NCBI GenBank assembly: GCA_026387915.1
Contig: JAPLKS010000004.1
Span: 62,001 to 126,000 of the forward strand
Reading direction: 5' to 3'
DNA: 64,000 bases
Source: Gemmatimonadota bacterium
Lineage (GTDB): Bacteria > Gemmatimonadota > Gemmatimonadetes > Gemmatimonadales > Gemmatimonadaceae
Shown: piece after piece, positions 19,813 to 36,079 of the stretch
Layout: the number at the start of each line of letters is the position of its first letter
Numbering within the stretch: position 1 is the first letter of the stretch
Made by a program: the position numbers and the translations under genes
Notes under the pieces: generated by a model
What the model saw: the letters and a program-made list of their open reading frames with translations, nothing else
The model's database searches: none
What the model was told of the DNA's origin: nothing

Positions 19813-21723
19813 GTGCCTACGTTGACCGAACCGATCGCAGCTCCTGCCGGGCGCGCCAAGGGCGTCCCGCCAACCATTCTCACCAAGCGCGAGCACACCG
19901 TCGAGATCGTCTCCGACTCCGGTGAAGGCGCGCAGCGTTGCGGCCAAATCTTTGGCGCCGTCTCGGCCAAGATGGGGAACGGCGTCTGGACGGTGGAGAT
20001 TATTCCCGCCGAAATCCAGCCGCCGCCGCGTATTCCCGAAGGCGCGAGCGGTTATCGCGTGCGCGTGGGAGCCGGTCCTGTCACCAACTGGGGCGACGCG
20101 ACCAATCTTGCGCTCGCCTTCAATGAGCAGGTGCTGCTCGCGCGCCATCGCCTGAATGCGTTGGCCGACGATGCCATCCTGCTCGTCGAAGACAAGTGGG
20201 CGACGTCGGATGATGCCGACATTCGCGCCGCGTGGGAGGCCGCGATGGTCGAGCTCTCCACCCGCCACTACCGGATTATTCCGGTGCCGATGGAAGCCGA
20301 GTGTCTGTTGCTCGTGGATAATCCCCGCAAGGGCAAGAACATGTTCGCGCTCGGGATGCTCGCCCGCGTGTACGACCGCGACTGCGAACGCATCAAAGAG
20401 CAGATCGCTTTCACCTTCCGCAAGAAGAGCGAAGCGGTCTACACCAGCAACGTCAAGTTGTTTGAAGCCGGCTATGAGTGGGCGGAAACAAATGTTGACG
20501 TCCGCATCAATGTGCCGCTGCAGAAGATGGATGAGAAGCTCGTGGTGATGAACGGCAACGAAGCCATTGCGCTCGGCGCTATCGCCTCGGGGATGGATAT
20601 GTGCGCGATGTATCCGATCACGCCGGCCACGTCGGTCTCGCACCTGCTGAGCGAGGTGTTCGAAAGGTTCGGCGGGATTGTGCACCAGGCCGAAGACGAA
20701 ATCGCGGCGGCTGGTGTCGCCATCGGTTCTTCGTATTCAGGCAAAGTGGCATTCACGGTGACGTCGGGCCCGGGACTCGCCCTCAAGACAGAGTTCCTCG
20801 GGCTCGCGGTGATGACCGAGATTCCGCTGGTGCTCGTGGACGTGCAGCGCGGTGGCCCCAGTACGGGATTGCCGACGAAGGTGGAACAGAGCGATCTGCT
20901 CGCGGCGCTTTATGCGTCGCCAGGCGATGCGCCGCACATTGTGATTGCGCCGGCGACTATCGAAGAATGCTTTCATGTGATGATCACCGCGCGTCGGTTG
21001 GCCGAAGCGTTCCGCACGGTGGTGATGGTGCTCACCGATGCGAACCTCGCGACCGGCGTGACGCCGTTCAAACGTCCGACGCCAGAACTCAACTGGCAGG
21101 CGGAGCCGGTGGATCTCTCCGCTGTGCCTGTTGGGACCAAGGCGTTTCAGTGGGATCCGCAGACGGGCCTTTCGCGTCGCATCGTGCCCGGTCAAGCGAA
21201 CGGCATGCATACGCTCACGACCCTCTCGCACGACGAAGGCAGCAAGGTGGCGTACAGCAGCGGCGTGCATCAGCGGAGTTCAGCGGCGCGGAGCCGCAAG
21301 CTCGCCGTGCTGCAGTCGCTGCTCACCCCGCCGCCCGTGTACGGCGACGCCACGGGCGATCTGCTCGTCGTGGGCTGGGGAAGCACCAAGGGCGCGATTG
21401 AAGAAGCGGTGGATCGTATGCGCGCGGAGGGGCTGAAGGTGAGTTCGCTGCACCTGCGCTTCCTCTCGCCGATGGAGCCCGGCATCAAGCCGATCTTCCA
21501 GAAGTTCAAGAAGGTCGTCACCGTGGAACTGAACTACAGTGACGAAATCGGCGATCCCTACGTGACCGAAGAGAACCGCCGCCTCGGCCAGCTCGCTTGG
21601 CTGCTGCGCGCGTCGACGCTCGTGGATGTGGACTGCTGGACACGCGTGCCCGGCGAACCGCTGCGCCCCGGCTCCATTGTGGACGCCATCAAAGACCGGA
21701 TGCCGAAGGGAGGTGCCAAGTGA
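19813..21723 (+). CDS. korA: 2-oxoacid:ferredoxin oxidoreductase, fused gamma-alpha subunit
   Basis: The protein has 636 residues. Residues 25-210 form the gamma domain (VSDSGEGAQRCGQIFGAV). The alpha/Pyr domain begins at about residue 235 with MNGNEAIALGAIASGMD, AMYPITPATSVSHLL, and AFTVTSGPGLALKTEFLGL. A transketolase-C-like part follows (LVVGWGSTKGAIEEAV). With KorB it oxidatively decarboxylates a 2-oxoacid (2-oxoglutarate, pyruvate or branched-chain) with CoA and reduces ferredoxin. The gamma-alpha fusion is the common two-subunit KorAB layout. GTG start; the stop overlaps the korB start (GTGA) with a strong GGAGG before it. First gene of the large cluster. Confidence 0.92.
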   Translation: MPTLTEPIAAPAGRAKGVPPTILTKREHTVEIVSDSGEGAQRCGQIFGAVSAKMGNGVWTVEIIPAEIQPPPRIPEGASGYRVRVGAGPVTNWGDATNLALAFNEQVLLARHRLNALADDAILLVEDKWATSDDADIRAAWEAAMVELSTRHYRIIPVPMEAECLLLVDNPRKGKNMFALGMLARVYDRDCERIKEQIAFTFRKKSEAVYTSNVKLFEAGYEWAETNVDVRINVPLQKMDEKLVVMNGNEAIALGAIASGMDMCAMYPITPATSVSHLLSEVFERFGGIVHQAEDEIAAAGVAIGSSYSGKVAFTVTSGPGLALKTEFLGLAVMTEIPLVLVDVQRGGPSTGLPTKVEQSDLLAALYASPGDAPHIVIAPATIEECFHVMITARRLAEAFRTVVMVLTDANLATGVTPFKRPTPELNWQAEPVDLSAVPVGTKAFQWDPQTGLSRRIVPGQANGMHTLTTLSHDEGSKVAYSSGVHQRSSAARSRKLAVLQSLLTPPPVYGDATGDLLVVGWGSTKGAIEEAVDRMRAEGLKVSSLHLRFLSPMEPGIKPIFQKFKKVVTVELNYSDEIGDPYVTEENRRLGQLAWLLRASTLVDVDCWTRVPGEPLRPGSIVDAIKDRMPKGGAK

Positions 21724-22676
21724 CGATTACCTGCGGCGTGTTACCTGTGCTCGAGCCTGAGGAACAGGAACACGCATACGAAATGGGCGACTACGAAGGC
21801 GCTCGCGCCCGCTGGTGCCCCGGTTGCGGCGACCACTCGATTCTCACCGCCGTGCAACGCCTGCTCGCGAGCGAACAACTCCCGCCCGAGCGGACGATGT
21901 TCGTGTCGGGCATCGGCTGCTCGAGCCGGTTTCCGCACTATCTCAATACCTACGGTTTTCACGGCATTCACGGCCGTGCACTTCCGATCGCGACGGGCAT
22001 CAAGCTCACCCGTCCCGATCTCGACATTTTTGTGGTCATGGGCGACGGCGATTGCACCTCGATCGGCGCCGGCCATTGGATACACGCTCTGCGGTACAAC
22101 CTCGACATCGTTGTAATGCTGTTAGACAACGGCATTTATGGTTTGACGAAGAATCAAACTTCGCCAACCACACCGCAGGGCCATCCGAGCAACACCCAGC
22201 CGCACGGTAGCTGGCTTCCCTCGCTCAATCCGCTTTCCACCGCGCTCGGTGTGACGAACGCCAGTTTCGTTGCCCAGACGGCGGAGTGGATTCCGTCGCA
22301 TCTCTACGCGACGCTGCGGGCGGCACGCCGGCACCGTGGGCTCAGTTTCGTACGGATTCTCCAGCGCTGCCCGGTGTATTCCAGCGCCGTCTATATGAAG
22401 GCGGTGCAGGATCCGTCACGCATCGCGCTCTTGGCCCACGACGATGGTGTGGTGGTGCCGGAACTCGAGAAAGTGTACAAGAACCAAGTGGCGCACGATC
22501 CGCATGACCTCGAAGCGGCGCGCCGCGTAGCCGAGTCCACGGAACATGTGAATCTCGGCGTGCTGTTTTCCGATCCTTCGCGGCCGCGCTACGAAGATTT
22601 GCGTCGTGTCCCGCCGCGCACCGCGGATGAACGCATTCACCTGCTCGATGCGGAGCTTGATCGCTATGCAGTCTGA
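21720..22676 (+). CDS. korB: 2-oxoacid:ferredoxin oxidoreductase, beta (ThDP) subunit
   Basis: The protein has 318 residues. A RWCPGCGDHSIL motif near the N-terminus supplies cysteines for the [4Fe-4S] cluster, and SGIGCSSRFPHYLNTYG follows. The ThDP/Mg site is GDGDCTSIGAGH...LLDNGIYGLTKNQTSPT. This is the standard KorB layout. A GTG start was chosen because it overlaps the korA stop and is preceded by GGAGGTG; the open frame upstream of it is not protein-like. It forms the catalytic half of a cytoplasmic ferredoxin-reducing complex with KorA. The last 11 bases overlap the next gene. Confidence 0.93.
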   Translation: MTITCGVLPVLEPEEQEHAYEMGDYEGARARWCPGCGDHSILTAVQRLLASEQLPPERTMFVSGIGCSSRFPHYLNTYGFHGIHGRALPIATGIKLTRPDLDIFVVMGDGDCTSIGAGHWIHALRYNLDIVVMLLDNGIYGLTKNQTSPTTPQGHPSNTQPHGSWLPSLNPLSTALGVTNASFVAQTAEWIPSHLYATLRAARRHRGLSFVRILQRCPVYSSAVYMKAVQDPSRIALLAHDDGVVVPELEKVYKNQVAHDPHDLEAARRVAESTEHVNLGVLFSDPSRPRYEDLRRVPPRTADERIHLLDAELDRYAV

Positions 22677-23670
22677 TTCGAGGGTCCAACAGGCGCTCAC
22701 CGCGCTCGATCGTCCGATTGCCGAGTTCCGTGCTCTGATGGAAGGGGCACTACGACAGGCCGATGCATTTCTCGAACAGCAGATGGCCGACGAACCCGCG
22801 CGTGTGAAGCGCGCGTCGGCTGCGCTCGGCGTGTTTGGCGCGTCGCATATCGATGCCACGCGTTTCGCCGCGCTCCACGTGGGCACGCGCACGGCGGATG
22901 AGCCGTCGCTCGCGGCGCTCCGTCGTGCGGTGGATGTCCTCAGGCAAATGACGGAACGCGGTGACAATCTCTTTTTGGCCGAAGTCACGAGCGGGGCCAA
23001 GATCAGCGCCGTAGTGGAGTCGGCGCTGGCGATGATTGGGTGGGCGTTTGGCGCGATCATCGTTACCGACCTCGTGCGCGGCGGCCGCTATGTAGAGGCC
23101 GACCACGCGTCGATGCTCGATCCGCTGCAGTTCGGCGGATGGAATCGCAGTGAGCGTCGTGCTGCGCCGCCACTCGTCGTGCGTGTGGCCGGTGTGTCCG
23201 TGCGGGCCACCGACCTCGCATCCTTTGCTGACGGGCATGTGAAACTCGTGCTGGTGGTGAGTGGCGACTGCGCTCCCGCGCCTCTTGCTCGGCTCATCAC
23301 CCCAGGCACGTTCGTGCTGCAAACCACGGATGCCTCAGGTCTTGATCGCGTGGCGCTCTTTGACGGCCCTGCCTTTGCCGCGTTGATGCCGGCCGGTGCC
23401 GCGACGTTCGTGCACGACCCGGCCCTTGGCCGCGAATCGTGGCAGCGCCTCACCGTGAGCTTCATTCCCGACGCGCCCAAGAAAGCCGTCGGCGCGATGA
23501 GCACTTGGCAACAACTCGAAGAACTCAAACAGCTCGCCGATCTCGCGCGGACACCGTTCTCGGTGCCGAACGCTGGCGGGAATGCAGCTCCGGCGATGGG
23601 CGCCTCAGATGCGGCGGACCGTATTGCCAGTTGGCTGCTGACACAAAGTGGACTCGGCGGTACCGCGTGA
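22666..23670 (+). CDS. Uncharacterised 334-residue protein between korB and rnfB
   Basis: I do not recognise this family. The protein appears soluble overall: a helical N-terminal third (residues 1-90, RVQQALTALDRPIAEFRALM and following), one moderately hydrophobic stretch at about residues 105-130 (VVESALAMIGWAFGAIIVTD), and a beta-rich middle (PLVVRVAGVSVRATDLASF, KLVLVVSGDCAPAPLARL, TPGTFVLQTTD). The C-terminus is a helical tail with a Gly/Ala-rich linker. It has essentially no cysteine pattern, so it is unlikely to carry an Fe-S cluster. Its start lies inside korB and 19 bases separate it from rnfB, so it is embedded in the operon and probably assists KorAB or Rnf. Confidence 0.72.
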   Translation: MQSDSRVQQALTALDRPIAEFRALMEGALRQADAFLEQQMADEPARVKRASAALGVFGASHIDATRFAALHVGTRTADEPSLAALRRAVDVLRQMTERGDNLFLAEVTSGAKISAVVESALAMIGWAFGAIIVTDLVRGGRYVEADHASMLDPLQFGGWNRSERRAAPPLVVRVAGVSVRATDLASFADGHVKLVLVVSGDCAPAPLARLITPGTFVLQTTDASGLDRVALFDGPAFAALMPAGAATFVHDPALGRESWQRLTVSFIPDAPKKAVGAMSTWQQLEELKQLADLARTPFSVPNAGGNAAPAMGASDAADRIASWLLTQSGLGGTA

Positions 23671-23689
23671 CAGCGCGAGGGACGATCCG

Positions 23690-24526
23690 ATGATGTTGCA
23701 GGCTGTGATGATCTTGGGTGGCGTCGGACTCGTCTTTGGCGTGTTCATCGCGCTCGCGAACCGCAAACTCTGGGTGTGGGAAGATCCACGCATTGACGCG
23801 GTGGCGTCGATGTTGCCCAATGCCAACTGCGGCGCCTGCGGATTGCCGGGCTGCCGAGCATTCGCGGAGCAGGCGGTGGGCGGTGCGGTGACGCCGTCGC
23901 AGTGCACGGTGTCGGGAGAATCGGCGCGTGACGCGATTGCCTCATACCTCGGCGTGGACGCCGGTGAAGAGCGGAAGCGCGTGGCGCGTCTGCTCTGTGC
24001 TGGCGGTACCGACGTTGCCATTCAGCAGGCCGAGTATCGTGGCGTGCCCACCTGTGCTGCGGCCGCGTCGGTTGCCGGTGGTGGCAAGGGATGCGCCTGG
24101 GGGTGCCTCGGCCTCGCGGATTGCGAGGTGTCGTGCGATTTCGGTGCCATTCAGATGACGGCCGCTGGACTGCCCAAAGTTGACGTGGCGCTGTGCACCG
24201 CGTGCGGCGACTGCGTGGAAGCTTGCCCCAAAGGGCTGTTCACGATTCTGCCGCTCGACGGACATCTCTTGGTGCAGTGCAAGAATCTGGTGCTGGGTGA
24301 TGACGCGCTCGATCAGTGCAAGGCCGCCTGCACCACGTGCGGCAAGTGCGTCATGGACGCCGCGGACGGATTGATCAGCGTCGCGAGCGGTGTGGCAGTG
24401 GTCAACTACGACAAAATCGCGCTCGAAGCGCCGAACGCCGCAACGCGGTGCCCCACGGGCGCCATCGCGTGGCTGAACGGAGCGCAATTCGCGGGCGTGC
24501 CGGTGATGCAACGGAGCAACAGATGA
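23690..24526 (+). CDS. rnfB: Rnf complex subunit B (multi-cluster ferredoxin)
   Basis: The protein has 278 residues. An N-terminal transmembrane helix (about residues 3-23) is followed by the Fe-S (DUF4-4S) domain with NCGACGLPGC (cysteines at about 47, 50, 55). Ferredoxin-type motifs follow: CTACGDCVEACP and CTTCGKCVMDA, with a CPTG near the end. RnfB takes electrons from reduced ferredoxin (or passes them to it) at the cytoplasmic face of the Rnf complex. ATG 23690 has GAGGG about 8 bases upstream; a second ATG follows immediately. Its stop overlaps the nifJ start (ATGA), physically tying PFOR synthesis to Rnf. Confidence 0.92.
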   Translation: MMLQAVMILGGVGLVFGVFIALANRKLWVWEDPRIDAVASMLPNANCGACGLPGCRAFAEQAVGGAVTPSQCTVSGESARDAIASYLGVDAGEERKRVARLLCAGGTDVAIQQAEYRGVPTCAAAASVAGGGKGCAWGCLGLADCEVSCDFGAIQMTAAGLPKVDVALCTACGDCVEACPKGLFTILPLDGHLLVQCKNLVLGDDALDQCKAACTTCGKCVMDAADGLISVASGVAVVNYDKIALEAPNAATRCPTGAIAWLNGAQFAGVPVMQRSNR

Positions 24527-27500
24527 AACTCTTTGGTGAAACGAAATCCTCGCCGGCGCCTGTGGTGCCGGCTCCTGAGTTCCCCGGCACGCTCGAAGCG
24601 CTCGACGGCAGTGCCGCCGTTGTCGCGATGGAGACGGCCGCTGGCGAAGCCGCTGGCGCCTATCCGATCACACCGAGCACGCAGATGGGCGAGGGCTGGG
24701 CCGCCGCGGTCGCCGAAGGCAAGGTGAACGTTAACGGTCGCCGGCTCCTGTTCTTTGAGCCGGAAGGCGAGCATGCGGCGGCGGCCGTGACGGCCGGTAT
24801 GAGCATGTCGGGCTTGCGCGCTACGAACTTCTCGAGCGGGCAGGGAATCGCTTACATGCACGAGTCGCTGTACGCGGCCGTGGGCAAGCGCCTCACTTAT
24901 GTGCTCAATGTGGCGGCACGGGCCATCACCAAGCACGCGCTCAATGTGCACGCGGGGCACGATGATTATCACGCGGTGGACGACACCGGCTTCTTTCAGC
25001 TGTTTGCGAAGGATGTGCAGGAAGTTGCCGATCTCAACTTGATCTCGCACCGCATTGCCGAGTTGTCGCTCAACCCGGGCATCTGCGCGCAGGACGGGTT
25101 CCTCACGAGCCACGTGATTGAAACGGCGATGATGCCCGAGCTGGACCTCATCAAGCGCTACCTCGGCGACCCGTCGGACTTGATTGACGCGCCGACGCCC
25201 GCGCAGCAGATGGTGTTTGGCCCCAAGCGCCGCCGCATTCCCGAAATGTTCGACGTTGATTATCCGGCGATGCTCGGCGTGGTGCAGAACCAAGAGAGCT
25301 ACGCGCAGGGTGTGGCCGCGCAGCGGCCGTTCTACTTTGACCACGTGGCGGCGCTGACTGATCGCGCCATGGACGAGTTTGCCGCCTTCACGGGGCGTCA
25401 ATACAAGCGTGCAAGTGGGTACTTGCTTGCAGATGCGGAGTGGGTGATTGTCGGGCAGGGTTCGGTTGTGTCGAATGCGGAGGCCGTGGCCGACCATCTG
25501 CGCGCGACGCGCGGACTCAAAGTGGGTGTGCTCAACCTCACGATGTTCCGCCCGTTCCCGGCCGATGTGATCACGCGGCTCCTCGCGGGCAAGAAGGGTG
25601 TCTGCGTGCTGGAGCGCACCGATCAGCCGTTGGCCGTGGATCCGCCGCTGATGCGCGAGATTCGCGCCGCGATGAGCCAAGCCGCGGAAAATGGGCGAGC
25701 CCTCAACGGGACGCGTCCGTACGATCTCGTGGCGTCGCTGCTTTCGGACCAGATCCCCGATTTCTACTCGGGGTGCTTTGGCCTCGGCAGCCGCGACCTC
25801 CAGCCGGGCGACATCATCTCGGCGGTGCTCAATATGCTGCCCGGTGCTGACCAGCGGCGTCAGTTCTACCTCGGCATTGAGTTCATTCGCGAAAAGACGC
25901 GCCTGCCCAAGCTTCAGATCTGGCAGGAGCAAATCACGGAGAGCTATCCGCACCTCGGCGAACTCTCGCTCGCCAGCGACGGACTGGTGAATCTGCTCCC
26001 GGCCGGCGCCACGTCGCTGCGCATCCACTCCGTTGGTGGATGGGGCGCCATCACGATGGGGAAGAACGTCGCGATGACGGCGTTCGAATTGTTTGGACTC
26101 CATATCAAGGCCAATCCCAAGTACGGCTCGGAAAAGAAGGGACAGCCCACCACGTTCTATGCCGTGTTGGCGCACGAGCCGGTGCGACTCAACTGCGAGC
26201 TCAAGCACGTGACGGTGGTGCTCTCGCCCGACCCGAACGTGTTCCGCCACAGCGATCCGCTCGACGGGCTTGCGGAGGGTGGCGTGTTTGTCGCGCAGAC
26301 GGAGCTGTCGCCTGAGGAGTATTGGAATACACTTCCGGCCGCCGCGCGCGCCAAGATCCGTGAAAAACAGATCAAGGTGTACGCGATTGACGCCTTTGCT
26401 GTGGCGCGAGAGGAAGCGTCTGATATTGAGCTGCGGTATCGTATGCAGGGTGCGGCGTTCATGGGGGCGTTCTTCGCCACGTCGCCGCTGCTCAGCCAAG
26501 AAAAGGCAACCGAAGCGGCGCTGTTCGAAGGAATTCGCACGCAGCTCCAAAAGAAGTTCGGCGGCAAGGGCGCGACGGTTGTCGAAGACAACCTGCGCGT
26601 GATTCGCCGTGGCTACGACGAAGTCAAAGTGGTGCCGATTGGCGGTGACGAAGGCGTGACGGTGAATGCGACCGTGGCGCATCAGCCGTTGATGATGGCA
26701 TCGGACAATGCCGAGCAGGGCCCTGGCAATCCGGGACGTTTCTGGGAGCAGGTCTGCTCGATGTGTGCGGTGGGACAAGAACAGATTGCCGATCCCTTTG
26801 CCGCCTTCAGCGCGATCCCTGCCGCCACCGGTGCGGTGCGCGACATGAGCGGTGTGCGGCTTGAGATTCCCGTCTTCCACGCAGAGAAGTGCACGGGCTG
26901 TGCGCAGTGTTGGACGCAGTGCCCGGACGCCGCTATTCCGGGACTCGTCAACACCGAAGAGGACTTAATCAATGCCGCGCTTACCCAGGCGAGCACGGTC
27001 CGTTCGTTTGAGCGGATGCGCGCCGTGGTGAAGCCGTGGGCAAAGGAAGCGCATCGTCTGCTGGCCAAGGAGCCATCGCTACCGGTGAGTGAGGCGTTTG
27101 CTAAGGGCTACGTGGGCGTGGCCGACAAGATGAACTGGGAGCCGACGCGTCGTGCTGAAACCGACGCAGAGTTTGCGGCCGTGCAGCAACTCATTGCGGC
27201 GTTCCCGGTGGCGCGGACGAAGGCATTCTTTGATGCGCCGGAATCGAAGTTCAAGGGCAACGGTGGATTGCTGTCGATTACCGTCAATCCTGAAGCGTGC
27301 AAAGGTTGCAACCTGTGCGTGACGGCGTGCCCCGATGGTGCGCTCACCACCGCACGGCAGGACGATTCGAATCTGGCACAGCTCCGCAGCAACTGGGCGA
27401 TGTGGACGCATCTCCCCGACACGGACGATCGCTTCGTCAACGTTTCCAGCGTGGACGACGGCATCGGTGTGCTCTCGTCGCTCTTGCTCAAGAAGGGCAC

Positions 27501-29613
27501 CTACCGCTCCATGGTCGGTGGCGATGGCGCGTGCATGGGGTGCGGCGAGAAGACTGCGGTCCATTTGATTGTGTCATCGATTTATGCGTGGATGCAGCCG
27601 CACGTGGATGCGCAGCTCAAGCACATCGACACGCTCATTGCTGGCCTTGAAGATCAGGCACGTGCGCTGGTTGGTGCCGGCGCAGACCTCGATGCGGCCG
27701 CGCGGACCGGTGGTGCGGTGAAGGTGCCGCTTTCCTCCGACGCCCACGCACGCATTGCGTTGCTCCAGGCATCGGTCAAGGAGCTCAAGGACCTCAAGTG
27801 GCGCTATCTCGAGGGGCCGAGCGGCAAAGGACGCGCCGCCCTCGGCATGGCGAACAGTACGGGCTGTAGCTCGGTGTGGGGGAGCACGTATCCGTACAAT
27901 CCGTATCCGTTCCCCTGGGTCAACCACCTCTTCCAGGACGCACCGAGTATTGCGATTGGCGTGTTCGAAGCGCACATGCGGAAGATGGCGGACGGCTTTA
28001 TTGCCGTGCGGCGTGCGGCGCTGCTACACGCGGGCACGTACGACGCGGCCACCCACGAGCCAGAGCTCGCGCACCTGGAGTGGTCCGAGTTCACGGACGA
28101 CGAATTCGCGCTCTGTCCGCCTATTGTTTCGATGGGTGGCGACGGTGCGATGCTCGATATCGGGTTCCAGAATCTCTCGCGCTTGCTGGCGAGCGGGAAG
28201 CCGCTCCGCGTGGTCGTGCTCGACACGCAAGTCTATTCCAACACCGGCGGTCAGTCCTGCACCTCGGGGTACACCGGCCAAGTGTCGGATATGGCGGCCT
28301 GGGGCAAGGCGCAGCACGGCAAGAAGGAAGTGCGCAAAGAACTCGCGTACATCGCCATTGCACACCGTGGTGTGTATGTGCATCAGTCGTCGCAGGCCTC
28401 GGCGTCGCATCTCATTGCTGGCGTGCTGAAGGGACTTAAGAAACGGCGTCCCGTGCTCATCAACGTGTACACGCCCTGCCCAGTGGAACATGGGCTCGCG
28501 GACGATTGGTCGCAGCACGCGTCGCGACTGGCGCTCGAGAGCCGCGCTTTCCCATTCCTCACGTACGATCCAGACGGTGGCTCGAACATCGCCGATTGCC
28601 TCACGCTCGAGGGGAATCCCTCGCTCGACACGCCGTGGCCGTCGTATGAACTGCGGTACGTAGACGACGCGGGCGCGGAACAGCTGATGGAGCTGCCGCT
28701 CACCATCGCCGATTGGGCGGCCACCGAGGCACGGTTCAAACAGCACTTCAAGGAAGTTCCGGCGGCCAAGTGGGACGACACGATGGTGCCGTTCCACGAG
28801 TATCTGCTCAAGCCGCACGACGAGCGTCGGGAACTGACGCCGTTTATCTGGGCCACGACTGCTGACCGCAAGTTGCGCCGGCTGCGCGTGACCACGGAGA
28901 TCGCGGTACTCGCTGAGGAGCGTCTCCAGTTCTGGTCGCAGCTGCGCCAGCTGGCGGGGCTCGAAGTGTCTGGCGCGGTGCACGCGATGGTCGCGTCGGA
29001 AGTGGACGCGGAGTATCGCGTTCGCGAAGCGGCGATGCGTGCCGATTTCGAACGGCAGATTGTGGAGCTCAAGGCGAGTTATCCGGCGCAGATCGCGCGG
29101 CGTCTCGCGGAAGGGCTGCTCAAGAACTCCGGTGGTTCGGCGGCGATTGCCGATCTGCTCGCGTCCTTGCCGGCGGTTTCGCCGGGCTTTGCGACGAGTG
29201 CGCCGGCAGCGGTGGCTGGCAACGGAGCGGTCGCCGCTGTCGCGGTACCCGCGCCGCCAGCGGCGCCGGTAGCGGCCGCACCAGCCGTTGCGACGGTGCC
29301 AGCCAAGGCACCAGACGCCGCAGTGGCGGGTGCCGCTACGGCATCAGACGACACCGACGACATCACAATGGAAGCGTGGATCGACTCGTCACGCTGCACC
29401 ACGTGCAATGAGTGCACCAACCTGAACAAGAAGATGTTCTCCTATAATGCCGACAAGCAGGCGTACATCAAGGACGCCTCGGCCGGCACCTATCAGCAAC
29501 TGGTGACCGCGGCGGAACGGTGCCCGGTCTCGATCATCCACCCAGGGACGCCGCTCAATCCGAAGGAGAAAGACCTGGAGAAGTGGGTGAAGCGCGCCGA
29601 GCCGTTCAACTGA
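24523..29613 (+). CDS. nifJ: Pyruvate:ferredoxin (flavodoxin) oxidoreductase, extended form with C-terminal ferredoxin domain
   Basis: The protein has 1696 residues, about 500 longer than usual NifJ. Order: Pyr domain (AYPITPSTQMGEGW near residue 50); domain II; gamma domain (HSVGGWGAITMGKNVAMTAF); a two-cluster ferredoxin domain with CTGCAQCWTQCP (about residue 789) and CKGCNLCVTACP (about 926); then the ThDP domain with CMGCGEKTA (about 1004), GDGAMLDIGFQN (about 1206) and LDTQVYSNTGGQ. A predicted helical extension follows, then an Ala/Pro/Val-rich linker (about 1560-1610) and a terminal single-cluster ferredoxin motif CTTCNECTNLN...CPVS. It converts pyruvate plus CoA to acetyl-CoA, CO2 and reduced ferredoxin. 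The position between rnfB and rnfC suggests direct electron delivery to Rnf. Confidence 0.93.
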   Translation: MKLFGETKSSPAPVVPAPEFPGTLEALDGSAAVVAMETAAGEAAGAYPITPSTQMGEGWAAAVAEGKVNVNGRRLLFFEPEGEHAAAAVTAGMSMSGLRATNFSSGQGIAYMHESLYAAVGKRLTYVLNVAARAITKHALNVHAGHDDYHAVDDTGFFQLFAKDVQEVADLNLISHRIAELSLNPGICAQDGFLTSHVIETAMMPELDLIKRYLGDPSDLIDAPTPAQQMVFGPKRRRIPEMFDVDYPAMLGVVQNQESYAQGVAAQRPFYFDHVAALTDRAMDEFAAFTGRQYKRASGYLLADAEWVIVGQGSVVSNAEAVADHLRATRGLKVGVLNLTMFRPFPADVITRLLAGKKGVCVLERTDQPLAVDPPLMREIRAAMSQAAENGRALNGTRPYDLVASLLSDQIPDFYSGCFGLGSRDLQPGDIISAVLNMLPGADQRRQFYLGIEFIREKTRLPKLQIWQEQITESYPHLGELSLASDGLVNLLPAGATSLRIHSVGGWGAITMGKNVAMTAFELFGLHIKANPKYGSEKKGQPTTFYAVLAHEPVRLNCELKHVTVVLSPDPNVFRHSDPLDGLAEGGVFVAQTELSPEEYWNTLPAAARAKIREKQIKVYAIDAFAVAREEASDIELRYRMQGAAFMGAFFATSPLLSQEKATEAALFEGIRTQLQKKFGGKGATVVEDNLRVIRRGYDEVKVVPIGGDEGVTVNATVAHQPLMMASDNAEQGPGNPGRFWEQVCSMCAVGQEQIADPFAAFSAIPAATGAVRDMSGVRLEIPVFHAEKCTGCAQCWTQCPDAAIPGLVNTEEDLINAALTQASTVRSFERMRAVVKPWAKEAHRLLAKEPSLPVSEAFAKGYVGVADKMNWEPTRRAETDAEFAAVQQLIAAFPVARTKAFFDAPESKFKGNGGLLSITVNPEACKGCNLCVTACPDGALTTARQDDSNLAQLRSNWAMWTHLPDTDDRFVNVSSVDDGIGVLSSLLLKKGTYRSMVGGDGACMGCGEKTAVHLIVSSIYAWMQPHVDAQLKHIDTLIAGLEDQARALVGAGADLDAAARTGGAVKVPLSSDAHARIALLQASVKELKDLKWRYLEGPSGKGRAALGMANSTGCSSVWGSTYPYNPYPFPWVNHLFQDAPSIAIGVFEAHMRKMADGFIAVRRAALLHAGTYDAATHEPELAHLEWSEFTDDEFALCPPIVSMGGDGAMLDIGFQNLSRLLASGKPLRVVVLDTQVYSNTGGQSCTSGYTGQVSDMAAWGKAQHGKKEVRKELAYIAIAHRGVYVHQSSQASASHLIAGVLKGLKKRRPVLINVYTPCPVEHGLADDWSQHASRLALESRAFPFLTYDPDGGSNIADCLTLEGNPSLDTPWPSYELRYVDDAGAEQLMELPLTIADWAATEARFKQHFKEVPAAKWDDTMVPFHEYLLKPHDERRELTPFIWATTADRKLRRLRVTTEIAVLAEERLQFWSQLRQLAGLEVSGAVHAMVASEVDAEYRVREAAMRADFERQIVELKASYPAQIARRLAEGLLKNSGGSAAIADLLASLPAVSPGFATSAPAAVAGNGAVAAVAVPAPPAAPVAAAPAVATVPAKAPDAAVAGAATASDDTDDITMEAWIDSSRCTTCNECTNLNKKMFSYNADKQAYIKDASAGTYQQLVTAAERCPVSIIHPGTPLNPKEKDLEKWVKRAEPFN

Positions 29614-29617
29614 GCCG

Positions 29618-30949
29618 ATGATGCGACTTGCGTTTGATTTCCGTCACGGGGTGCATCCGCCGGAGGAGAAGGAGCTCACACGAGCGCTTCCGATCCGACG
29701 GATGCCGTATCCGGACGAACTGGTGTTGCCGCTGCGTCAGCATGCGGGCAAGCCAGCCAAACTGTGTGTGAAGGTCGGCGATTATGTCGAGCGTGGAGAT
29801 ACCATTGCCACCGCCGATGGCTTTGTATCGGTGCCGATTCATGCGTCGGCCTCCGGCACGGTGACCGCCATTGAGTTCTGGCCGCATCCCGACGGCAGCT
29901 ACGCCGAAGCGGTGCGCATTGCCGTGGACAAGTACGCGCCACAGTTGCCGCGTCCGCGTCTGGTGCCCAAATGGGAAGGGCTCACTACGGAGCAGGTGGT
30001 TGCCGCCGTGCAGAACGCCGGTGTCGTCGGACTCGGCGGCGCGGCATTCCCGACGCACGTCAAGCTCGCGCCGCCCAAAGAGTATGCGGTGCATACGCTG
30101 ATTATCAACGGCGCGGAGTGCGAGCCGTATCTCACCTCCGATCACCGCACGATGGCCGAGTATCCCGACCGCGTGCTGTTCGGCATTCGCGTGATGATGC
30201 ACGCGATGGGAGTGACGAAGTGCGTGGTGGGCATCGAGAAGAACAAACCCGATGCCATTGAGGCGATGCGCCGCGCGGTGCCGAAGGATCTGGATGTCAC
30301 CATTCTTCCGCTCACGGTAAAGTATCCGCAGGGCGCCGAGAAGATGCTCATTCAGGCGGTGACGGGCGTTGAAGTACCGTCGGGCAAGTTGCCGGTGACC
30401 GTGGGCGTCGTAGTGCAGAATGTAGGATCGGTGGCGGCCATCGCCGAAGTGTTTGAGACGGGACTGCCGCTGATTGAGCGCATTGTTACGGTCACGGGGC
30501 ATGGCCTCACGAAGCCGGCCAATCTGATTGTGCCCGTGGGTACGAAACTGCGCGATCTCATTGCGTACTGCGGCGGGGTGACCCCCGATGCCGCCGAAGT
30601 GATTCTCGGCGGGCCAATGATGGGCGTGGCGCAGGCGAATCTTGACGCGCCGGTGGTGAAGGGAACGACGGGCGTGGTGATTCTCGCCGCCCACGAAACG
30701 CGTAGCGCGACGATTTATCCCTGCATTCATTGCGGACGGTGCCTCGATGCCTGTCCGGTGTTCCTGAATCCGTCGCACCTTGGCGACCTCGCGCGAGTGG
30801 GGCGCCACGACGAAATGACAGAAGCGCATCTCGCGGACTGCATGCTCTGTGGATCGTGCGCCTATGTGTGTCCTTCGAACATTCCGCTCGCGCATCTGTT
30901 TCAGGCGAGCAAAGCGGCGCTCCGGCGCGCGCAGGCGGGAACCTCATGA
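29618..30949 (+). CDS. rnfC: Rnf complex subunit C
   Basis: The protein has 443 residues. An N-terminal barrel-sandwich region (LCVKVGDYVERGDTIATADG) precedes the FMN/NADH-binding domain with GLGGAAFPTHVK and INGAECEPYLTSDHRTM. SLBB-like and two [4Fe-4S] motifs follow, CIHCGRCLDACP (about residue 370) and CMLCGSCAYVCP. RnfC is the NAD(H)-reacting cytoplasmic subunit. Two adjacent ATG codons (29618, 29621) are possible starts, 4 bases after the nifJ stop. Its stop overlaps rnfD (ATGA). Confidence 0.95.
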   Translation: MMRLAFDFRHGVHPPEEKELTRALPIRRMPYPDELVLPLRQHAGKPAKLCVKVGDYVERGDTIATADGFVSVPIHASASGTVTAIEFWPHPDGSYAEAVRIAVDKYAPQLPRPRLVPKWEGLTTEQVVAAVQNAGVVGLGGAAFPTHVKLAPPKEYAVHTLIINGAECEPYLTSDHRTMAEYPDRVLFGIRVMMHAMGVTKCVVGIEKNKPDAIEAMRRAVPKDLDVTILPLTVKYPQGAEKMLIQAVTGVEVPSGKLPVTVGVVVQNVGSVAAIAEVFETGLPLIERIVTVTGHGLTKPANLIVPVGTKLRDLIAYCGGVTPDAAEVILGGPMMGVAQANLDAPVVKGTTGVVILAAHETRSATIYPCIHCGRCLDACPVFLNPSHLGDLARVGRHDEMTEAHLADCMLCGSCAYVCPSNIPLAHLFQASKAALRRAQAGTS

Positions 30950-31950
30950 GTCTCGCGACTCCTTCAAAGCTGATTGTCACGGCGTCGCCGCACGTAAAGT
31001 CGGCGGACAGCACGCCGAAGATCATGTGGCACGTGGTGTTCAGTCTCGCGCCGGTGATTGTGTCGAGCGCGTGGTTCTTTGGGCTGAGCGCGCTGTTGGT
31101 GATTGTCACCTCGACAATCGCCGCGCTGCTCACCGAGCGCGCGATGGGCAAGGGCGGCACGCTCGCCGACGGCTCCGCGATGATTACCGGATTGCTCCTG
31201 GGGCTCACCCTTCCCGCGGGAATGCCGCTCTGGATGGTGGCGATTGGCGGTGCGTTCGCGATTGCCTTTGGCAAGACCGTGTGGGGCGGCCTCGGTCAGA
31301 ATGTGTTCAACCCGGCGTTGGTGGGGCGCGCATTTTTGCAGGCCGCGTTCCCGGTGGCGATCACGACGTGGCCCACCGTTGGTGGTTCCTTCATGGAGCT
31401 TAAGGGCGATCTCTTTGCGCTTCCGTTTCTGCATCCCGTGACGAATGCGGTCACCTCGGCCACGCCGCTCGGATTGCTGAAGTTCGAGGGAACGGGAACC
31501 GCGTTGATGCCGCTCATTATGGGCAACACCGGCGGCTCGGTTGGAGAGACCGCCGCGCTCGTGATTCTTGCGGGCGGATTGTACCTCGCGTTGCGCCAGT
31601 ATCTCAACTGGCGCATTCCCGCGAGCATTCTGCTCACGGTGGCGGCGCTGAGTACCGTGTTGCACCTCGTGGACGCAAAAAAGCCGGACGCATTCTTTAT
31701 GCTCTTCTCCGGCGGCTTGATGCTTGGCGCCGTGTATATGGCCACCGACATGGTCACCTCGCCGGTCACGAATAAAGGCAAGTGGGTGTTCGGCTTCGGC
31801 ATTGGCGTGCTGGTGGTGCTGATTCGCGTGTGGGGTGGACTCCCCGAAGGGGTGATGTACGCCATTCTCTTTATGAACGCGCTGACGCCGTTCATCAATC
31901 GTGCGACGCAGCCGGCGGTCTTTGGTTCGGCAACGAGGATCGCCCAATGA
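30946..31950 (+). CDS. rnfD: Rnf complex subunit D (covalent-FMN membrane subunit)
   Basis: The protein has 334 residues with about nine transmembrane helices. The RnfD/NqrB core text includes GKTVWGGLGQNVFNPALVGRA, and the FMN-phosphothreonine site is in VTSATPLG (about residue 167-172). YMATDMVTSPVT is also visible. The covalently bound flavin carries electrons through the membrane and is linked to ion translocation. ATG 30946 overlaps the rnfC stop. ApbE, encoded eight genes-lengths downstream in the same cluster, is expected to attach the FMN. Confidence 0.94.
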   Translation: MSLATPSKLIVTASPHVKSADSTPKIMWHVVFSLAPVIVSSAWFFGLSALLVIVTSTIAALLTERAMGKGGTLADGSAMITGLLLGLTLPAGMPLWMVAIGGAFAIAFGKTVWGGLGQNVFNPALVGRAFLQAAFPVAITTWPTVGGSFMELKGDLFALPFLHPVTNAVTSATPLGLLKFEGTGTALMPLIMGNTGGSVGETAALVILAGGLYLALRQYLNWRIPASILLTVAALSTVLHLVDAKKPDAFFMLFSGGLMLGAVYMATDMVTSPVTNKGKWVFGFGIGVLVVLIRVWGGLPEGVMYAILFMNALTPFINRATQPAVFGSATRIAQ

Positions 31951-32624
31951 CCGACCACGTGCACGTTCACGGCGGTGGCGGCGCGCCACCAGTGCAGGGC
32001 AAGATGACGCCAGCGTGGAAACTGCTCGCAACGTTATTCGTTGCAGGCGCTGCCGCAGGCTTGCTGGTGGTCGCGGTGTATCGCGCCACGCTTCCCGCCA
32101 TTCAAAAGGCGGCCGCGGCCAAAGTAAACGGGGCCGTGCGCGAAGTGCTCAAGGCCCCCGCCAAGTGGGACACGCTGTACGTCGTGAAAAACGCACTGAC
32201 TGCCAAGCTCCCCGAGGGCGCCGATCCGCAGGAATATCAAAAGGCATACGTCGGTCAGGATTCGTCGGGCAAGCGCATGGGGATTGCTGTGGTTGGTGAG
32301 GGCCCGGGCTTCCAAGAGATTATGCAACTGATGATCGGCTTCGACCCGGCCACCGGCACCCTTATCGGCATCAAGGTGCTCGACCAAAAAGAAACCCCCG
32401 GCCTCGGCGACAAAATCGAAAACGACCCGTCGTTTATGGCGCAGTTCGTGACGCGCATTGCGCCGGTCGTGGGGGTGAAGGGGCGCGCGGGATCGCCGCC
32501 GAACCAAGTGCAGACCATCACCGGCGCGACGATTTCGTCACGCGCGGTTATCAAGCTGGTGAATGCCACCGTGGCGCGCTGGCAGGACCTGATGCAGCGC
32601 TACGACAAGGGAGGAACCCCGTGA
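31947..32624 (+). CDS. rnfG: Rnf complex subunit G (covalent-FMN periplasmic subunit)
   Basis: The protein has 225 residues. An N-terminal His/Gly-rich stretch (TDHVHVHGGGG) precedes one membrane anchor (about residues 27-48). The FMN-binding domain ends in the flavinylation motif ITGATISSRAV (about residues 190-200), where the threonine receives FMN from ApbE. VGEGPGFQEIMQLMIGFD and DQKETPGLGDKI are conserved family text. It accepts electrons on the periplasmic side. ATG overlaps the rnfD stop (ATGA); its stop overlaps rnfE (GTGA). Confidence 0.94.
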   Translation: MTDHVHVHGGGGAPPVQGKMTPAWKLLATLFVAGAAAGLLVVAVYRATLPAIQKAAAAKVNGAVREVLKAPAKWDTLYVVKNALTAKLPEGADPQEYQKAYVGQDSSGKRMGIAVVGEGPGFQEIMQLMIGFDPATGTLIGIKVLDQKETPGLGDKIENDPSFMAQFVTRIAPVVGVKGRAGSPPNQVQTITGATISSRAVIKLVNATVARWQDLMQRYDKGGTP

Positions 32625-33313
32625 CCGCCGTCGCCACCCCCGCCGCGCCGAAAAACGACGCGCCGGCCTTCGACCCCGGAGCGCCGCCGCCGGCGACGCT
32701 CTTTCAGGATGTCTGGCGTGGCATCGGAAAGGAAAATCCGGTGCTCGTCCAGTTCCTCGGCATGTGCCCCACGATGGCGGTCACGAACATCCTCGCGAAC
32801 GGCTTTGCGATGGGTGTGGCCACGACGTTCGTGCTTGTGGGCTCGGGGCTCTTCGTGTCGCTGTTCCGAAAGTACATCGCGCATGAGGTGCGTATTACCT
32901 CATACATTCTGATCATCGCCACCTTCGTGACACTCGCCGACATGTTGCTGGCGGCGAGTTTCCCCGATATCAGCAAGGCGCTCGGTCCGTTCATTCCGCT
33001 CATTGTGGCCAACTGTCTCTTGCTTGGACGCGCCGAAGCCTTTGCCGCTAAGGTCAAGCCGCTGCGCGCGGTGGCCGACGGACTCGGTATGGGATTGGGC
33101 TTTACCGTGTCGCTCTCCGCGCTCGCCTCGTTCCGCGAGATTCTTGGGCGCGGGACGATCCTCGGCATGCCGCTCTTTGGGCCGCGGTTTGAGCCGTGGG
33201 TCTTCCTGATGATGCCTCCGGGTGGATTCCTCACCCTGGGCATCGCCTGCCTCACCGTCGCGTACGTGATCGAGTGGCGCAAGAAGCACACCCTCGCCGC
33301 GCGGAGCGCCTGA
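32621..33313 (+). CDS. rnfE: Rnf complex subunit E
   Basis: The protein has 230 residues. A Pro/Ala-rich N-terminal extension of about 28 residues is followed by six transmembrane helices. Conserved cysteines lie in QFLGMCPTMAVTN and IVANCLLLGRAEAFA. RnfE and RnfA together hold a [2Fe-2S] cluster in the middle of the membrane, as NqrD/NqrE do. The start is GTG overlapping the rnfG stop, and the stop shares a base with the rnfA start (TGATG). Confidence 0.94.
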   Translation: MTAVATPAAPKNDAPAFDPGAPPPATLFQDVWRGIGKENPVLVQFLGMCPTMAVTNILANGFAMGVATTFVLVGSGLFVSLFRKYIAHEVRITSYILIIATFVTLADMLLAASFPDISKALGPFIPLIVANCLLLGRAEAFAAKVKPLRAVADGLGMGLGFTVSLSALASFREILGRGTILGMPLFGPRFEPWVFLMMPPGGFLTLGIACLTVAYVIEWRKKHTLAARSA

Positions 33314-33891
33314 TGGGACACCTCAGCTGGATTTTTGTCTCGACGTTGCTCGTGAACAATTTCACGCTCGTGATGTTCCTCGGGCTCTGTTCGTTCTTTG
33401 GCGTGACCGGTAAAGTGGAAACCGCCTGGCGACTCGGACTGGCCAACACCTTCGTGCTGTTGCTCACCGCACTCAGTGCGTGGTTCCTCAATAGCTACGT
33501 GTTGCAGCGTACGCCGTTCCTGCGCACCATCGCGTTCATCGTGGTGATTGCGAGCGCGGTGCAGATCGTCGAAATGGCGGTGAAGAAGTATCTGCCCATT
33601 CTGTTTCGGCAGCTGGGCATCTACCTGCCCCTGATCACCACCAACTGCGCGATTCTTGGGCTCGCGCTTTTCCAGACGAGCCGCAACTACACGCTCGTTG
33701 AGGCGCTCGTATTCGCCCTCGGCGCCGGCTTTGGATTGACGCTAGCGCTCTCGCTCATGGCTTCGATCCGCGAGCGCACCGAACTCACCGACCCGCCGGT
33801 GGTCGCGCGCCGCATGGGCCTCGTGCTCGTGATTGCGTCGTGCCTCTCGATGGCCTTCATGGGTTTTGCCGGAATGGGGAGTGCCGACTAA
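33313..33891 (+). CDS. rnfA: Rnf complex subunit A
   Basis: The protein has 192 residues and six transmembrane helices. It shows inverted-topology homology to RnfE; the cluster cysteines are in MFLGLCSFFGV and TTNCAILGLALF. Length and motifs are typical. It pairs with RnfE to coordinate the intramembrane [2Fe-2S] cluster. ATG overlaps the rnfE stop, and the stop shares a base with the next start (TAATG). Confidence 0.95.
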   Translation: MGHLSWIFVSTLLVNNFTLVMFLGLCSFFGVTGKVETAWRLGLANTFVLLLTALSAWFLNSYVLQRTPFLRTIAFIVVIASAVQIVEMAVKKYLPILFRQLGIYLPLITTNCAILGLALFQTSRNYTLVEALVFALGAGFGLTLALSLMASIRERTELTDPPVVARRMGLVLVIASCLSMAFMGFAGMGSAD

Positions 33892-34037
33892 TGCAGATCT
33901 TTTTGGCGGTGTTCATCACCGCGTTGCTGTTTGTTCTCTACGGGTTGCTGCCGCATCGCGGCTGCACGGGCCATTGCGCCGGATGCACCGGTAGCTGCGG
34001 TCGTAACGAAGAAGATGGAGACCACCATGCGCATTGA
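33891..34037 (+). CDS. 48-residue cysteine-rich single-pass membrane protein, NqrM-like candidate
   Basis: The protein has 48 residues. A single hydrophobic helix (QIFLAVFITALLFVLYGLL) is followed by a short cysteine cluster C-x3-C-x2-C-x3-C (GCTGHCAGCTGSCG) and a His-rich tail (GDHHAH). It starts within the rnfA stop (TAATG) and overlaps apbE by 11 bases. In Na+-NQR loci a small one-helix, four-cysteine protein, NqrM, sits beside apbE and is needed to build the Fe centre between NqrD and NqrE. The position, size and cysteine content here suggest an analogous maturation factor for RnfA/RnfE. FeoB-associated cysteine-rich proteins are the other family it resembles. Confidence 0.72.
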   Translation: MQIFLAVFITALLFVLYGLLPHRGCTGHCAGCTGSCGRNEEDGDHHAH

Positions 34038-35022
34038 TCCTTTTGTCGGCCGCACCAACAGCCGCCGTGAGTTTCTCACCCTCGGTGTTGGATTGTTCGC
34101 TGCGCTGACGTTGCCGGCCGCCGTGTTGCGCCGGACCACACTTGCTCGGCGCTCCTTCCCCCTAATGGGCACGATCGCCGAGCTGCAGGTGGCGCATCAC
34201 GACGAGCGCTACGCGGAGGCGGCGATTGATGCGGCCATTGCGGAGTTGCAGCGCGTGGAGCGGATGATGTCGCGTTTTATTGCGACCTCCGATGTTGGTC
34301 GCGCCAACCTCGGCGCCGCCCGCGAGGCGGTGACGGTGTCGGCAGAGACCGCGGAAGTGGTGCGTACCGCGCTCGCATGGTCGGAGGCGAGCAACGGTCG
34401 ATTTGACCCCGCGGTCGGCGCCGTGAGCGAGTTGTGGGATGTCGTCAATCGCAATGCGCCACCGGCTGCCGATGCGGTGCGTCCGCTCGCGCAGCGTGGG
34501 TTCTGGCGCCAGGTCGATGTTTCGACGCTGCGCGGTGTTCCGGCCATCCGGTTTGCGTCCAGCGACCTACATCTCGACCTCGGCGCTGTTGCGAAGGGCT
34601 ACGGCATCGACCGCGCCACGCAGGTATTGCGCGACCTCAAGATTGAACACGCAATCATCACGGTCGGTGGCGATCTCTACGCGCTCGGTGGCTCGCCGGA
34701 AGGTGGCCCGTGGACGGTTGGCATTCGTGATCCGCACGATGTGCGCGCGGTGGTGCAGACGCTCGAGGTTCGCGATCGCGCCGTGGCCACGTCGGGTGAC
34801 TACGAACGGTTCTTCCGCTGGCACGGTGTGCGCTACCATCATTTGATGGACCCAGAAACCGCCGCGCCGCGTCGCACCATCTATCACAGCACGACGGTCT
34901 TAGCGAGCCGAGCGATGGATGCCGACGCGGCTTCGACCAGTGTGTTCGGGTTGTCCCGTGGCGCGGCGCTGAGCATTGCACGCCGTCACGCACTCGACGT
35001 GGATGTGATTCCGCTGACCTGA
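34027..35022 (+). CDS. apbE: FAD:protein FMN transferase, Tat-exported
   Basis: The protein has 331 residues. A twin-arginine signal (NSRREFLTLGVGLF) targets it to the periplasm. The ApbE domain shows FPLMGTIAELQVAHH, DLGAVAKGYGIDRA, ITVGGDLYALGG and ATSGDYERFF, then HHLMDPETAAP and a metal/FAD-binding TTVLASRAMDADAASTS. It transfers FMN from FAD to threonines of RnfD and RnfG, both carrying the target motif in this cluster. Start chosen at 34027 because GGAG lies about 7 bases upstream; ATG at 34015 is an alternative. Confidence 0.94.
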   Translation: MRIDPFVGRTNSRREFLTLGVGLFAALTLPAAVLRRTTLARRSFPLMGTIAELQVAHHDERYAEAAIDAAIAELQRVERMMSRFIATSDVGRANLGAAREAVTVSAETAEVVRTALAWSEASNGRFDPAVGAVSELWDVVNRNAPPAADAVRPLAQRGFWRQVDVSTLRGVPAIRFASSDLHLDLGAVAKGYGIDRATQVLRDLKIEHAIITVGGDLYALGGSPEGGPWTVGIRDPHDVRAVVQTLEVRDRAVATSGDYERFFRWHGVRYHHLMDPETAAPRRTIYHSTTVLASRAMDADAASTSVFGLSRGAALSIARRHALDVDVIPLT

Positions 35023-35035
35023 TGTGATTCTGACC

Positions 35036-35068
35036 GCTGGCACGCCGCGCGGTGCGCGCCGTGCCAGC
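35036..35068 (+). terminator. Strong intercistronic hairpin after apbE
   Basis: A 9-bp arm (35036-35044 with 35060-35068) continues, after one C/C mismatch, into a 5-bp arm (35046-35050 with 35054-35058) and a 3-base loop. No U-run follows; the Shine-Dalgarno of the next gene begins 2-3 bases later. It may end or attenuate rnf-cluster transcripts, protect the upstream mRNA end, or influence translation of the downstream gene. Confidence 0.5.
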
Positions 35069-35080
35069 ACGGAGGGAGAG

Positions 35081-35437
35081 ATGAGTTCCCACCAACTGCA
35101 CTGCGATGCCTGCGCGCGGCCCGTGCGCATAATGGTCACGGCCCCGCACGCCCTTGATGGTCCGCCGAACATGCACGACGCCGAGGTTATTTGCCTCGAC
35201 GTGGGGGAGCAATGCACCGGCGGCCGATGCCCACTCGGCAAGGTTGAGCCGGATGCCATGGTCTCGCGGCTCATTCGCAACGGACTGCCGCTCGACGGCA
35301 TGAAATCCGTTATTACCCTGTGCCCAGCGTGCGACAGCCAGGCCGAGATGGTGTTGTATGGCGACGGGCACGCCGCGTGCACGGTGTGCGGGACGCCGGC
35401 GCGGTGGGTGCTGCGGCATGCCGAGCCGCTGACGTAG
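35081..35437 (+). CDS. 118-residue cysteine-rich protein, unknown function
   Basis: I do not recognise the family. The protein is soluble and has nine cysteines: CDAC near residue 8, single Cys at about 38, C-x4-C (QCTGGRC, about 45-50), CPAC (about 81) and CTVC (about 98). The paired CxxC motifs suggest one or two zinc ribbons, or an Fe-S site. A very strong Shine-Dalgarno (GGAGGGAG) is 2-3 bases before ATG 35081. It follows apbE after a hairpin, so it may be a conditionally co-expressed member of the rnf cluster. No strong hydrophobic segment is present. Confidence 0.75.
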   Translation: MSSHQLHCDACARPVRIMVTAPHALDGPPNMHDAEVICLDVGEQCTGGRCPLGKVEPDAMVSRLIRNGLPLDGMKSVITLCPACDSQAEMVLYGDGHAACTVCGTPARWVLRHAEPLT

Positions 35438-36071: not shown

Positions 36072-36079
36072 CCTGCAAC

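Follow-up and report, generated by a model that had tools for sequence, protein, structure and literature searches.

The Rnf complexes of Acetobacterium, Clostridium, Azotobacter and Thermotoga share six subunits, flavin mononucleotide (FMN)-threonine motifs and an associated ApbE, and they take electrons from soluble ferredoxin, for which RnfB is the expected docking subunit. Rnf and pyruvate:ferredoxin oxidoreductase (PFOR) are usually linked only through a shared pool of this soluble carrier. Docking of soluble ferredoxin on RnfB is assumed for the Rnf complex of A. woodii (PMC11889175), and RnfB holds a small ferredoxin-like domain of its own, flexibly tethered to a membrane helix (PMC11889175, PMC12174285). 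Here we describe an operon of 13 genes on the + strand (positions 19813-35437) in a stretch of 64,000 nucleotides from a Gemmatimonadota bacterium (assembly GCA_026387915.1, contig JAPLKS010000004.1, positions 62,001 to 126,000), hereafter the window. The same six subunits, FMN-threonine motifs and ApbE are encoded, and RnfB is likewise the expected docking subunit; in contrast to the known systems, the gene between rnfB and rnfC codes for a PFOR fused to a ferredoxin. As judged from sequence, the most likely function of the operon is that of a PFOR-Rnf module, in which the tethered ferredoxin probably hands electrons to RnfB.

The PFOR gene, nifJ, contains the following features:

24523..29613, + strand: nifJ-like long-form PFOR, 1696 residues, with POR_N, PFOR_II, POR, two 4Fe-4S and thiamine pyrophosphate (TPP_C) domains
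29119..29370, + strand: NifJ linker, residues 1533-1616 (84 residues), 48% Ala+Pro
29371..29610, + strand: tethered [4Fe-4S] ferredoxin of NifJ, residues 1617-1696 (80 residues), Pfam Fer4_13/Fer4_15

The complete domain series of the PFOR superfamily lies in a single chain, the catalytic motifs YPITPS, VAARA, CMGCGE, GDG and NTGGQ are kept, the protein matches the solved structures 6cin and 1b0p, and its residues are compatible with pyruvate as the substrate. The name nifJ, given in an earlier sequence-only reading of this DNA, holds for the superfamily domains and motifs but not for the standard enzyme, considering the score against the canonical NifJ equivalog (TIGR02176, 413 bits vs a cut-off of 911), the length of the protein and its C-terminal ferredoxin. 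The PFORs of Desulfovibrio africanus and Moorella display the same domain series with the same TPP and 4Fe-4S motifs; the window NifJ, however, is ~500 residues longer, has insertions in domain VI and between the two clusters of domain V, and ends in the linker and ferredoxin. A fused acceptor at the C-terminus is also found in the PNO-type PFOR of Euglena, which is joined to a cytochrome P450 reductase domain, but that acceptor is a flavodoxin/reductase domain for NADP+ reduction and not a ferredoxin beside an ion pump.

From the TPP domain onwards, the C-terminus of NifJ consists of a long predicted helix, the linker and the ferredoxin. Over 36 sequences the linker has medians of 81 residues and 38% Ala+Pro, the remainder of the operon having 19%; linker length varies while that of the ferredoxin part is nearly constant. 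The linker is predicted to be disordered at about residues 1557-1612, corresponding to fragment residues 177-232, where the AlphaFold2 confidence measure pLDDT falls to < 50; over the ferredoxin domain it is about 57-77. The assignment of the tail as a [4Fe-4S] ferredoxin is supported by the Fer4 domain match and by the ligands C1625, C1628, C1631 and C1667 (CxxCxxC...C), these four Cys being invariant in 38 sequences; the closest PDB match is D. africanus ferredoxin I (E 4.6e-5).

The presence of the tail strictly follows that of Rnf. Counting one row per genome, it was detected in 67/67 loci with rnfC downstream and a NifJ C-terminus readable to the stop (43 Gemmatimonadota, 10 Planctomycetota, 13 Myxococcota and 1 Persicobacter), and it was absent from 16/16 long PFORs without Rnf in the locus, a tally that leaves out L180 and L101 (contig ends) and L204, whose contig is too short for an assignment. 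Six Myxococcota loci have the tail on a second, degraded NifJ-like protein encoded at the position of orf334, and NifJ itself is tail-less where its C-terminus was read, so that each of these clusters still has one tail. A further case is genome G039, in which a NifJ lacking both Rnf and tail is sister to a tailed copy (100% support in the Shimodaira-Hasegawa-like approximate likelihood ratio test) and nests inside the tailed clade of the core tree, evidencing a secondary loss of tail and Rnf together; in this genome zr137, the last gene of the operon, directly follows nifJ though the rnf genes were lost. It could be argued that tail and Rnf are co-regulated only, the fused ferredoxin acting as a general outlet (or as a structural domain) that reduces other acceptors and passes no electrons directly to Rnf. 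Contact between the tail and Rnf is indeed a prediction, and free ferredoxins may also exist in the cell; yet the 67/67 vs 0/16 distribution, the location of the tail on either of two cluster proteins and the persistence of the nifJ-rnf unit without kor genes in other lineages make this explanation improbable. Stand-alone long PFOR-like proteins of about 1500-1640 residues, mostly 31-37% identical and without Rnf or tail, occur in Gemmatimonadota, Planctomycetota and Myxococcota (L088-L092, L195, L196, L205, L209-L216).

Conservation of the locus was examined within and beyond the phylum. Among 249 sampled Gemmatimonadota genomes, 54 have an RnfC that scores above cut-off. In the class of the window, nifJ, or at contig edges the C-terminal part of it, lies directly upstream of rnfC in 47/48 loci, the remaining genome, G189, having the two genes on separate contigs, and korA through rnfA is intact in about 28 loci. 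Six rnfC loci belong to another class of the phylum; these run from rnfC onwards, with nifJ and kor absent in the stretch read, one being cut by the contig end after rnfD and the other five showing rnfCDGEA. A scan of GTDB contigs with orf334 retrieved 72 loci, mostly from Gemmatimonadota and most of them preserving the gene order of the window; the other labels were Planctomycetota, Myxococcota/Deltaproteobacteria, Rokubacteria, Acidobacteria and Armatimonadetes, although some labels of short contigs from metagenome-assembled genomes (MAGs) may be wrong. The unit was also encountered when Planctomycetota and Myxococcota were each sampled across the phylum. In a plasmid collection, 21 records gave a strong RnfC match, and the NifJ C-terminus was found only in those of Gemmatirosa kalamazoonensis and Persicobacter psychrovividus (Bacteroidota), the latter with the arrangement nifJ-rnfCDGEAB and no korAB. 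Gemmatirosa kalamazoonensis KBS708, which is in culture, has the unit on plasmid 1 (1.1 Mb, NZ_CP007129.1; L176 and L076 are the same locus), with cys48 and apbE relocated between rnfG and rnfE.

Canonical Rnf operons elsewhere lack nifJ, including five of the six loci of that second class (rnfCDGEA in the stretch read), as would be expected if nifJ and the kor genes had entered an rnf operon by chance and without functional meaning. Absence of the arrangement from close relatives had been named beforehand as the sign of such an insertion, and the opposite was observed; the order is kept across Gemmatimonadota families, many genera and several phyla, which is more than chance would produce. 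Chance insertion is refuted by this conservation and retains a negligible probability.

Some rearranged loci were also observed. In two single-contig MAGs, G124 (L084/L094) and G157 (L050/L095), nifJ is split in two distant parts, korAB-orf334-rnfB with the N-terminal part of nifJ lying far from the C-terminal part with rnfC, which may reflect an inversion or a misassembly. The single contig of G183 (L049, L099) shows nifJ-rnfCDGEA-apbE, NifJ matching from residue 70 on, and korAB, orf334 and rnfB were not found upstream.

In the window the remaining genes of the operon are as follows:

19813..21723, + strand: korA, fused gamma-alpha subunit of a 2-oxoacid:acceptor oxidoreductase, 636 residues (Pfam POR 37-222, POR_N 255-425)
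21720..22676, + strand: korB, beta subunit, 318 residues (TPP domain PF02775, CPGCG motif at 33)
22666..23670, + strand: orf334, 334 residues, relic of PFOR domain VI by profile and fold comparison
23690..24526, + strand: rnfB, 278 residues (FeS domain and further 4Fe-4S motifs, 20 Cys)
29618..30949, + strand: rnfC, NADH/FMN side (TIGR01945, 541 bits, cut-off 246)
30946..31950, + strand: rnfD (TIGR01946, 319 bits, cut-off 207; FMN-threonine motif TSAT at 170)
31947..32624, + strand: rnfG (TIGR01947, 104.9 bits, cut-off 102; FMN-threonine motif TGAT at 192)
32621..33313, + strand: rnfE (NF009070, 222 bits, cut-off 184)
33313..33891, + strand: rnfA (TIGR01943, 212.7 bits, just below the cut-off of 229.3)
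33891..34037, + strand: cys48, 48 residues, hydrophobic start and four Cys at 25, 29, 32 and 36
34027..35022, + strand: apbE, flavin transferase (PF02424, 254 bits)
35024..35437, + strand: zr137, zinc-ribbon-like protein, last gene of the operon

The sequence-only reading had described a unit of twelve genes in one direction at 19813-35022, with korAB at the head, nifJ between rnfB and rnfC, and stop/start overlaps at most junctions. Gene calls bear out this order for all twelve genes on the + strand, with no internal stops, but not the end of the unit, as zr137 follows apbE after a gap of +1 nucleotide and is the 13th gene (korA-korB-orf334-rnfB-nifJ-rnfC-rnfD-rnfG-rnfE-rnfA-cys48-apbE-zr137). 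The 12 junctions measure, in order, -4, -11, +19, -4, +4, -4, -4, -4, -1, -1, -11 and +1 nucleotides, 9 of them being overlaps. The operon has natural boundaries given that it is flanked upstream by a gene for an M28 peptidase (17798-19555, - strand), divergent from korA, and downstream by a convergent open reading frame (35514-36173, - strand); inspection of the 3' end for a promoter or terminator pattern revealed none. In relatives zr137 is kept adjoining apbE or nifJ, and the M28 peptidase gene stays beside the operon in several of them.

With rnfA, rnfB, rnfC, rnfD, rnfE and rnfG in one locus the Rnf complex is complete, and the motifs said to be intact are in place, namely the two FMN-threonine sites of RnfD and RnfG and the 4Fe-4S motifs of RnfC (two) and RnfB. 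RnfC, RnfD and RnfG exceed the NCBIfam subfamily cut-offs, and so does RnfE for NF009070, being slightly under that of TIGR01948 (206.7 vs 213.4 bits); RnfB, like RnfA, is below its cut-off (TIGR01944, 60.3 vs 68.7 bits), and for both proteins Rnf families are the best matches despite these scores. Genes for an ApbE-type flavin transferase and a small Cys membrane protein at the operon end recall the Na+-translocating NADH:quinone oxidoreductase (PMC12174285). The small protein of the window, cys48, is kept in many loci, showed no match in Pfam and, by analogy with NqrM, is a possible cluster-maturation factor. Its Cys spacing differs from that of NqrM, and the relation is one of analogy only.

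KorA scored above the TIGR03710 cut-off (524.7 vs 482.75 bits), while KorB was just under that of TIGR02177 (237.2 vs 261.9 bits), which is still its best family. The proposed identity as a korA-korB oxidoreductase is supported, except that korA is no plain alpha subunit gene and encodes a fused gamma-alpha chain (POR, then POR_N). Two-subunit KorAB oxidoreductases have the same fused subunit and a beta subunit with CPGCG; they differ in that the window enzyme is encoded at the head of an rnf operon beside a second, tethered enzyme. KorAB is optional, as the nifJ-rnf part occurs with no KorAB in Persicobacter and in some Myxococcota. Replacement of 2-oxoglutarate dehydrogenase (OGDH) by KorAB was considered and rejected, since SucA is encoded by the genome of the window and by nearly every other genome that has the module, a match being absent only from G129 and G165.

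The gene between korB and rnfB, previously listed as an unknown, can now be placed. Orf334 aligns with the second NifJ-like protein of Myxococcota (protein X; hhalign probability 98.3, E 2e-14) and, at the profile level, with domain VI of NifJ (probability 73, E 3e-5). Its AlphaFold2 model (pLDDT 91) retrieved PFOR residues ~808-1172, that is domain VI, in all top five rows of VIA-align (Z 7.9-8.3, values near 8 being not decisive alone); Foldseek against PDB produced no match with E under 0.001. The identity is based on profile comparison and VIA-align together. Neither the consensus of A2 nor the region aligned between orf334 and NifJ contains the GDG and NTGGQ motifs, and orf334 is therefore read as a non-catalytic relic of domain VI of a second PFOR.

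Set beside the established gene order, domain architecture, fused ferredoxin, tail-Rnf association and identity of orf334, the following mechanism can be proposed. The long PFOR would oxidize pyruvate or a related 2-oxoacid, and electrons would pass from its internal 4Fe-4S clusters to the C-terminal ferredoxin on the flexible Ala/Pro-rich arm, which would dock on RnfB in place of free ferredoxin; a PFOR-fused ferredoxin could reach RnfB without diffusing. KorAB may feed the same arm from a second 2-oxoacid, probably 2-oxoglutarate, and orf334 is probably a structural partner of PFOR or its link to RnfB. Rnf would then pass the electrons to NAD+ and export Na+ or H+, and the NADH would enter the ordinary respiratory chain, so that every 2-oxoacid oxidized by this route would bring one coupling step more than with pyruvate dehydrogenase (PDH) or OGDH. 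A 2-oxoacid-to-Rnf module with possible channelling of ferredoxin had already been suggested for this locus; the idea is supported in part, and it is strengthened by the deep conservation and by the fused ferredoxin, the kind of part that channelling needs. Tentatively, these proteins may even form a respiratory supercomplex, in which the PFOR-tethered ferredoxin shuttles between the 2-oxoacid oxidoreductases and RnfB; Rnf would then in effect be an ion-pumping pyruvate (and 2-oxoacid):NAD+ oxidoreductase that needs no free ferredoxin, present in several phyla of largely aerobic bacteria.

The genome of the window encodes one complex I NuoD, three strong heme-copper oxidase matches, SucA (OGDH E1) and a PDH-type E1, in agreement with the aerobic type of lineage previously assumed, and the module would thus add to an aerobic-type chain and not replace it. 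Electron transfer flavoprotein genes are present outside the cluster. Neither ackA nor a nifH above cut-off was found in this genome. A role in nitrogen fixation was rejected on the latter ground, and a fermentative role via acetate kinase was rejected considering the absence of ackA together with the lack of a significant association of this gene with the module (18/50 vs 46/193, p 0.10).

In favour of the PFOR-Rnf module as proposed, the divergence of NifJ correlates with that of RnfC (r 0.87) and RnfB (0.79) more than with that of KorA (0.37), values that carry no species-tree control. Other observations weigh against it. The lack of a clear association with ackA gives no support to a fermentative role, and with PDH-type and OGDH E1 genes in the genome 2-oxoacids can be oxidized without the module. 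In addition, the tail of G039 adjoined the lost rnf genes, and both losses could be accounted for by one deletion that began inside nifJ and reached apbE, as nifJ is now followed by zr137; no selection on the tail would have been required.

The direction of electron flow has also to be considered. Rnf is reversible and runs in reverse in aerobes such as Azotobacter (PMC12174285), and it may be conceived that the complex uses up NADH and the ion gradient in reducing the tethered ferredoxin. This ferredoxin would in turn drive PFOR and KorAB to carboxylate acetyl-CoA and succinyl-CoA reductively, for anaplerosis or CO2 assimilation. The genome already possesses PDH-type and OGDH E1 for the oxidative direction, and a private ferredoxin would shield low-potential electrons from oxygen; on the other hand, no nitrogenase above cut-off is available as a further ferredoxin sink, and the cluster holds nothing that points to CO2 fixation. 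Reverse flow is an unlikely, though serious, alternative, and the forward direction is favoured, as electrons are what PFOR and Kor naturally supply.

The open-access papers searched contain no account of a PFOR fused to a ferredoxin and encoded beside rnf genes. The main text of a 2022 survey of energy conservation in Gemmatimonadota contains neither Rnf nor ferredoxin (PMC9426454), and that of a 2025 review on RNF/NQR contains neither Gemmatimonadota nor fused carriers (PMC12174285). Rnf and PFOR are each known; within the literature searched, a PFOR with a tethered ferredoxin inside an rnf operon is a new combination. The bacteria concerned inhabit soil and freshwater. The leashed ferredoxin of their PFOR, encoded inside the Rnf operon, suggests that electrons may reach the pump without a freely diffusing carrier. 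If true, this would be a direct and testable example of electrons being channelled to an ion pump, the tail having been seen only beside Rnf in the genomes sampled. These largely aerobic bacteria would also gain either a route that conserves energy where PDH and OGDH do not, or a supply of low-potential electrons that is protected.

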